DNA from: Alteromonadaceae bacterium
GTDB taxonomy: Bacteria; Pseudomonadota; Gammaproteobacteria; Pseudomonadales; Cellvibrionaceae
NCBI GenBank assembly: GCA_002746115.1
Contig: NVXL01000024.1
Location: forward strand, 1 to 46,881
Reading direction: 5' to 3'
DNA length: 46,881 nucleotides
In this document: positions 23,387 through 25,317 of the stretch, piece by piece
Numbering within the stretch: position 1 is the first letter of the stretch
Layout: each line of letters starts with the position of its first letter
The notes under the pieces: generated by a model
What the model saw: only the letters and a program-made list of their open reading frames with translations
The model's database searches: none
What the model was told of the DNA's origin: nothing
Position numbers and translations under genes: made by a program

Positions 23387-23422
23387 CGCTGTGCTTGAAT
23401 AGTAAGCTATTCAAGCACAGCG
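23387..23422. terminator. Perfect 16-bp hairpin after dapB
   Basis: CGCTGTGCTTGAATAG and CTATTCAAGCACAGCG form a fully paired stem with a four-base TAAG loop. It lies 65 bases beyond dapB. The following ATTGTTGTTC is only moderately T-rich. Confidence 0.7.
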
Positions 23423-23600: not shown

Positions 23601-25058
23601 TTAGCGACCGTCAAAGTTTAGTTCGAAGGTGACTCTGTTATTTCTAGCTGCAATGGCATTCCATTCCGACGCTGAGCTTATGCCGCTTATCGGTGGGTAG
23701 CTTTTGGATGGTTGTGAAAAACCTGCGATATCTAATGCGATGTTGATCTCGCCCGACTGAATGGGGATTGAGGATTGCTCAAACTGTATAAACGGGATGC
23801 TGACATAGCTCTCGGGCGTTTCATCGATGTTGATATCTTCATAAAAAGTACATTCGCTGAGTGCTGTGTCGTCTGATGCAAGCATCCAGTTGGCTGTTTC
23901 CGATTGGCGGGCTAAACAGTAGTTGCCGAAGTGGATCTTTAGCTGAATAAAACCACTAAAGCCACTCTGGCTTAGCTTATAGACTAAATTCTGGATGTTT
24001 AGCACTTGGCCTTCGTCAAGGGGCGATTCGTTAAACGGGTATTGCATATCGATAGTCATGACCCAGCTGAGGGTATCGATTAGTGCTTTAGGGTTAAGCT
24101 CTGTGGCGGTGCTTTTGCCTGATAGGCTCGTAGTGTTGGCGGCCTTGGTTTTTGCGGCATTGCTGGTAGCTTGTTGTTCGCTAAGGTTTATAACTGAGTT
24201 GTTAAGTGTTCCAACTTGCTGTGTGGAGCGATGCAAAATAAAGGCTATCGCAGCAATGCCAATGAGTATAAGGGTGATTAGAGTGTTGGAGAGAAAGCCT
24301 GCGCGCGCGCGCTCAGCTTGCGCTTCGCCATTGATAACGGATAGTGGGATGTCGTCAACGCGGATATCGTCAATGGATATGTGGTCAAACTTGTGTTGTA
24401 GCTTTTTAAACTGTTTTGCTTGAGATGTTAGTTGTCGCTTTATGTCGGCGAGCAAAGCTTCTTGTTTGGTTTGGTCGTTGGGCGGAGTTTCGCTTTCTGG
24501 TGCGTCTAGGTATGGAGCCTCTGCAATGGATAACGGGTCAAACACTGTGCTGCTTTTTTTGTTTGCTCTCATCAGCCGACTTTCAGCAGCGCTAGGTAGC
24601 TCGGGCGTGGCCTGTGTTTCAGTGGTTTCAGTGAGTGCTGGCTGGCTGTTAACGTTTTCATCTTCCTTGTCTTGCTCATTATGCAGTTTGATATGCAGCC
24701 GTTTCATCAGGTTGTCGAGATTGGACTTTTTGAAGGTGTCTTTTGATAGCGTGTCCAGTGCCCCAAGGGCGCGCGCATGGCTCACGTATACGTCACCGCG
24801 TTGAGCGGTATACATAATTACCGGAATCATTGCGGTGCTGGGGTTGCCTTTGATGATTTTAAGCGCCTCCAATCCATCCATTCCATCCATGTGGTGATCC
24901 ATGAATATGATGTCGGGCGCCAAGGTTGGCAGTGAAGCGAGGGCTTGCTCAGCGGAGAAGGCGACATTGACTATGACGTCATAGATGCGTAGTAGCTTCT
25001 TCAGGCGAAATTGTGCCGTTTTAGAATCATCAACAATTAAAGCGGTTTTCGTAGACAT
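23601..25058 (-). CDS. Membrane-anchored receiver-domain protein with periplasmic C-terminal domain
   Basis: Residues 1-125 form a complete response-regulator receiver: acidic pocket Asp10/Asp11, phospho-acceptor Asp54 (IIFMDHHMDGMDG), Thr84 and Lys106. A polar, acidic linker (126-200) and a coiled coil (200-225) follow, then one membrane segment at about 256-276 (LITLILIGIAAIAFIL). The remaining ~200 residues should lie in the periplasm and include Cys381 and Cys403, a possible disulfide. This part faintly resembles OmpA/MotB-like peptidoglycan-binding domains (YPFNESPLDEGQ, ending RNNRVTFELNF), which is inference. No DNA-binding, kinase or enzymatic output domain is seen. The order receiver-membrane-periplasm is unusual: phosphorylation inside could control an outside domain. 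It stands alone, without an adjacent kinase, in place of the usual dapB-carA junction. Confidence 0.85.
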   Translation of the reverse strand: MSTKTALIVDDSKTAQFRLKKLLRIYDVIVNVAFSAEQALASLPTLAPDIIFMDHHMDGMDGLEALKIIKGNPSTAMIPVIMYTAQRGDVYVSHARALGALDTLSKDTFKKSNLDNLMKRLHIKLHNEQDKEDENVNSQPALTETTETQATPELPSAAESRLMRANKKSSTVFDPLSIAEAPYLDAPESETPPNDQTKQEALLADIKRQLTSQAKQFKKLQHKFDHISIDDIRVDDIPLSVINGEAQAERARAGFLSNTLITLILIGIAAIAFILHRSTQQVGTLNNSVINLSEQQATSNAAKTKAANTTSLSGKSTATELNPKALIDTLSWVMTIDMQYPFNESPLDEGQVLNIQNLVYKLSQSGFSGFIQLKIHFGNYCLARQSETANWMLASDDTALSECTFYEDINIDETPESYVSIPFIQFEQSSIPIQSGEINIALDIAGFSQPSKSYPPISGISSASEWNAIAARNNRVTFELNFDGR

Positions 25059-25317
25059 TGGTACAGGTACACCTTTATTTTTATCGCCTGCTGGAAGGTC
25101 GCCGATACTTTAAGTGAGCATCGAGTAATAAGCGCCAGTTTTGGATAATAGCAGTCGGTTGCTGATTCTCAAGGAAATGGGTCACTGTAATATAAGTTCA
25201 AGCTGTCGGAGGGTAAATAATATGACGGCCTTGGCCTTGTCGGTACTTAGATTGAATATCCTTAGTCACAGCTTGTGTTCGTGTAGACAGTCTGACCAGT
25301 TTTAACGTAGAATCCGC

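Follow-up and report, generated by a model that had tools for sequence, protein, structure and literature searches.

Inside-out control by a membrane protein has a precedent in the c-di-GMP receptor LapD (PMC3032553). In a stretch of 46,881 nucleotides from an Alteromonadaceae bacterium (contig NVXL01000024.1; here, the window), we identified a gene for a 485-amino-acid protein with a proposed logic similar to that of LapD (PMC3032553), i.e., a cytoplasmic input that would be converted to a periplasmic output across the inner membrane. In contrast to this protein, LapD senses c-di-GMP via degenerate GGDEF/EAL domains, its periplasmic part is folded differently, and the two are not homologous; the degenerate GGDEF/EAL domains with HAMP that characterize LapD were not found in the 485-amino-acid protein, for which Pfam returned PF00072 only. 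Taken as an analogy, LapD is the nearest working analogue, albeit a non-homologous one. CheY-like single receivers, of which RR468 and CheY are the best PDB matches, share with the protein the receiver fold and the full active site; unlike them, it is predicted to be membrane-tethered with an extracytoplasmic domain, and it has no DNA-binding, enzymatic, or c-di-GMP output. The domains of OmpA, MotB, Pal, and YfiB (PF00691 fold) share with its C-terminal domain the predicted fold, the order of strands and helices, and an N-R-V-E-like C-terminal end; unlike these domains, the C-terminal domain matches no Pfam family, has Gly or Ala in place of the Asp of the HTD motif, carries a two-Cys insertion after strand 2, and is joined to a receiver.

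The gene is an open reading frame at 23601-25058 on the minus strand that starts with ATG, encodes a receiver, linker, coiled coil, transmembrane (TM) helix, stalk, and OmpA-like domain in that order, and is kept in 28 of 78 relatives. It is flanked by dapB and carA, both on the opposite strand. An earlier note, made from the sequence of this DNA, had claimed that the gene interrupts a common dapB-carA order and that no kinase is adjacent, and both claims were borne out. Of the 20 relatives checked (with the window and genome G006 not counted), 7 have dapB upstream of carA at a distance of at most 1.5 kb, supporting that the receiver gene breaks into a common order, and the insertion between dapB and carA is also present in G006 and G030. 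No kinase gene adjoins the receiver gene among the open reading frames in the window or in the relatives' loci. At the convergent ends of dapB and the receiver gene, we identified a 16-bp perfect inverted repeat (23387-23422) that is terminator-like in both directions, and upstream of the receiver gene, a candidate sigma-70-like promoter with an extended −10 element (TTGAGA-16-TATTAT; 25145-25172, minus strand). As consensus matches, the repeat and the promoter-like site would fit a stand-alone transcript of the receiver gene.

The receiver domain (residues 1-120; 24699-25058, minus strand) matches Response_reg (PF00072) at residues 7-114 with an E value of 7e-21 and a score of 74.8 bits compared to a curated cut-off of 30.2; no other Pfam domain matched the protein. 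All 28 aligned homologues have the phospho-acceptor D54 (codon at 24897-24899, minus strand) and the catalytic residues that act with it (D10, D11, T84, and K106), which supports that the receiver is kept active. Judged by profile and active-site residues, the receiver is a normal member of PF00072, and we infer that it is phosphorylated.

Following the receiver is a low-complexity cytoplasmic linker of variable length (residues 121-195; 24474-24698, minus strand), modeled mostly at a pLDDT <50. AlphaFold predicts a cytoplasmic amphipathic or coiled-coil helix at residues 196-227 (24378-24473, minus strand), where the aligned segment is conserved as LFExHIAxVR, and then a continuous helix at residues 242-313 that runs through the membrane segment to a compact domain. 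The protein contains one strong hydrophobic segment with a 19-residue Kyte-Doolittle mean of 2.33 at residues 257-275 (24234-24290, minus strand). Acidic residues are absent from this predicted single TM helix, NTLITLILIGIAAIAFILH, and the hydrophobic segment is kept in 92 of 92 proteins with the C-terminal domain (mean hydropathy 2.2, minimum 1.5). The charge bias around the helix under the positive-inside rule (36 versus 35) was uninformative. The extracytoplasmic part of the continuous helix forms a stalk (residues 276-313; 24120-24233, minus strand), along which the pLDDT falls from ~83 to 56, such that its far part is modeled at low confidence.

The exported part comprises ~210 residues and includes the C-terminal domain (residues ~323-485; 23604-24092, minus strand), which AlphaFold modeled at a pLDDT of 95 based on 80 sequences. 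While Foldseek matches for the full-length model were swamped by receivers, the PDB matches listed as best for the C-terminal domain were YfiB, Pal, MotB/MotS, OmpA-like domains, PomB, TssL, and ZorB; the best had an E value of 3.3e-3 at a probability of 1.00, and none reached an E value of 0.001. In a profile comparison, the domain matched OmpA domains of the same genome with a probability of 36%, and 12 unrelated families used as controls reached ≤0.4%; when the OmpA set was slightly reduced, the probability dropped to 12%, and the relaxed alignment was collinear from end to end. None of the 28 members had a Pfam match in the C-terminal domain, including to PF00691 at an E value of ≤1; the gene is absent from the PF00691 hits of its own genome, and a PDB sequence search with the domain profile gave a chance hit only. 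In the relaxed alignment to the OmpA profile, 74 of the 80 sequences have Gly and the other 6 have Ala in the column of the peptidoglycan-binding Asp of the HTD motif; the column of the Arg in LSxxRA is uncertain by one residue. Because the domain resembles OmpA in its fold and neither the profile nor the ligand Asp agrees, we file it as OmpA-like and not as a member of the OmpA family.

Two Cys residues, a Trp, and an Asn are invariant in the 80 sequences of the C-terminal domain, and L, G, G, Y, P, A, A, N, and R are nearly invariant. Trp466-Asn467 (23658-23663, minus strand) belong to the motif (A)GEWN..A..NNR, which the profile alignment places at the NRRVEI end of OmpA. The invariant pair is Cys381 (23916-23918, minus strand) and Cys403 (23850-23852, minus strand), with a spacing of 20-26 in all 92 members and of 21 in 82 of these; each of the 92 has exactly two Cys within the domain. 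Cys content is 0.96% on the C-terminal side versus 0.11% on the receiver side, where it is thus approximately eight times rarer. This distribution is as expected for an oxidizing periplasm, and together with the model fits a periplasmic, degenerate OmpA-like domain that would be stabilized by a disulfide.

The architecture proposed in the earlier note is in agreement with these analyses, i.e., an intact phosphorylatable receiver (D54, T84, and K106), a linker, a coiled coil, one membrane segment, and an extracytoplasmic domain of ~200 residues, the last two by predicted topology. Instead of a hydrophobic stretch outside the membrane or a cytoplasmic C-terminal fold, we found a conserved predicted membrane helix and a predicted envelope fold. 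The guess that this fold is OmpA/MotB-like was right at the level of the fold, while the statement that there is no known output domain stands with respect to Pfam and falls with respect to the fold, which is known.

The architecture extends beyond the window. The C-terminal region has one homologue each in 28 of the 78 relatives, and since a protein query and a profile retrieved the same 28, presence is all or none. A class-wide profile search identified carriers in 19 of 276 sampled genomes, and the domain was recovered in other genera with E values down to 1e-52, which excludes chance. Almost every genome has a single copy; in the class sample, G213 had two matches, one of which was at a contig edge. 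Dozens of named metagenome-assembled genomes and isolates carry the same architecture, including Teredinibacter, Saccharophagus, Marinimicrobium, Cellvibrio, Thiodiazotropha, Ketobacter, Steroidobacteraceae, Woeseiaceae, and others, and intact members have the receiver, linker, membrane helix, and exodomain in this order. The architecture is a gammaproteobacterial family with members far beyond this genome. Among these members, we found no fusion protein that gave a clue to function, and a 723-residue frame in G320 was rejected as a fusion because it is merely an over-long open frame.

A search with the receiver profile only recovered the same receiver subfamily in tail-anchored proteins that consist of a receiver, long coiled-coil helices, and a C-terminal membrane helix. 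These proteins have the receiver subfamily and the membrane tether in common with the OmpA-type proteins but lack the periplasmic domain, and occur in Marinobacter (L131 and L136), Ketobacter (L132), and several other lineages; further loci are L135, L193, L194, L197, and L199-L203. In a receiver tree based on a short alignment of 117 columns and rooted on seven divergent receivers, the OmpA-type proteins together with L111 and L190 form one group (support 96/89) that is nested among the tail-anchored proteins. This nesting suggests that the tether predates the periplasmic module, and the tree would most simply be read as a single gain of the exodomain by proteins that were already tethered. 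L111 (Aliikangiella marina) and L190 (G089) have the same receiver subfamily and a membrane helix with a different exodomain, in which two Cys are 45 residues apart; this exodomain looks like an exchanged output. In Ketobacter, an OmpA-type (L082) and a tail-anchored protein (L132) are encoded on one contig. In two Marinobacter genomes, the gene for the tail-anchored receiver is preceded, at a distance of 53 bp, by one for a protein with MORN repeats and a PEGA domain (L131:4629-5945), which is a possible functional partner.

Gene neighborhoods were considered as a source of partners for the OmpA-type proteins and rejected. Different lineages have different neighbors, and those with an annotation are unrelated genes of metabolism (dapB/carAB; M16 peptidase/aceEF [pyruvate dehydrogenase]; PEP carboxylase; PP2C-kinase protein; glycosyltransferase/esterase; racemase/SIR2), so that neither a kinase nor a target could be named from them. 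Co-occurrence with FimV was uninformative because FimV is universal. In the class sample, flagellin genes were present in 17 of 19 carriers versus 135 of 257 non-carriers (P = 0.0015), and among the relatives in 27 of 28 carriers versus 40 of 50 non-carriers (P = 0.09), both uncorrected for phylogeny and genome size. Two complete carriers have no flagellin, and flagellin was rejected as a partner clue because it is enriched but not obligatory, and the enrichment is confounded. At the Steroidobacteraceae-type loci (L097, L101, L104, L115, L122, and others), the gene immediately after that of the receiver encodes an alpha/beta hydrolase; as called, the two genes often overlap or lie within ~20 bp of each other, and several of these loci have a glycosyltransferase or PAP2 gene upstream. 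This gene set is a lineage-specific operon.

These observations are best explained by a response regulator that spans the membrane and signals from the inside to the outside, a reading to which we assign slightly less than an even chance. An unlinked kinase or phosphorelay would phosphorylate Asp54 in the cytoplasm, and based on the behavior of the receiver family, the phosphorylated receiver might alter dimer or coiled-coil packing. This change could travel along the predicted continuous helix through the membrane to the putatively disulfide-stabilized, degenerate OmpA-like module, which would then most likely bind or release a partner protein in the periplasm or outer membrane, in the manner of the OmpA-fold proteins YfiB and Pal; the YfiB-YfiR and TolB-Pal entries among the Foldseek matches are OmpA-like folds solved in complex with partner proteins. 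The Gly or Ala in the HTD Asp column of all 80 sequences argues against simple peptidoglycan anchoring, and loss of this canonical ligand favors a protein partner over a plain wall anchor. The active receiver, the conserved C-terminal module, and the modeled helix that joins both sides support this reading, as do the Cys distribution and the precedent of LapD, and the inside-to-outside direction proposed in the earlier note is plausible. The uninformative charge bias, the lack of a linked partner or kinase gene among the loci analyzed, and the low-confidence stalk weaken it. The tail-anchored receivers of the same subfamily also count against it because, without a periplasmic part, their tether can serve a purely cytoplasmic role.

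Such a role is the core of the main rival, which we judge possible but on balance unlikely. Here, the receiver would act in the cytoplasm close to the membrane, as a localized scaffold, an effector, or a phosphate sink. The only role of the OmpA-like domain would be to hold the receiver in place in the envelope, and no signal would cross the membrane. The nested position of the OmpA-type proteins, by which tethering alone is probably the older role, agrees with this, as do the conserved cytoplasmic helix in the linker and the L111/L190 subclade, the two-Cys exodomain of which gives the impression that exodomains are exchangeable. A plain wall anchor, however, would be expected to keep the peptidoglycan-gripping Asp, and this residue is lost from an otherwise strictly conserved exodomain. 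The same exodomain might instead read the state of the envelope (for example, a ligand, or redox through its two Cys) and set how fast the receiver is phosphorylated or how available it is. Transmembrane sensors normally signal in this direction, and the Cys pair is invariant and in an exposed location, but a receiver is normally the module that receives the input, and the protein has no cytoplasmic output domain to relay a signal; we consider such a sensor improbable. Very improbable is a cell-wall clamp of the MotB/Pal type in which the receiver gates peptidoglycan attachment. The OmpA/MotB fold identified by Foldseek and the uncorrected flagellin enrichment in the class sample point toward it; however, the canonical Asp is lost in all 80 sequences, the TM helix is devoid of the Asp present in that of the MotB stator, two complete carriers are without flagellin, and the annotated neighbors, among which there is no gene for a MotA partner, are not motility genes.

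Our search of the open-access literature returned no description of membrane-anchored, transmembrane, or tail-anchored response regulators, which is weak evidence of novelty; the architecture is real, conserved, widespread, and apparently undescribed. The outputs of response regulators are generally understood to be cytoplasmic. We tentatively propose, at somewhat less than an even chance, that widespread response regulators in Gammaproteobacteria pass a phosphorylation signal outward across the inner membrane to a degenerate OmpA-like periplasmic effector without involving gene expression or c-di-GMP. The occurrence of the family in the cultured genera Teredinibacter, Saccharophagus, and Marinimicrobium makes it open to experiment. 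If true, a family in which an active receiver is coupled to an envelope domain would represent a direct two-component route to the cell envelope.
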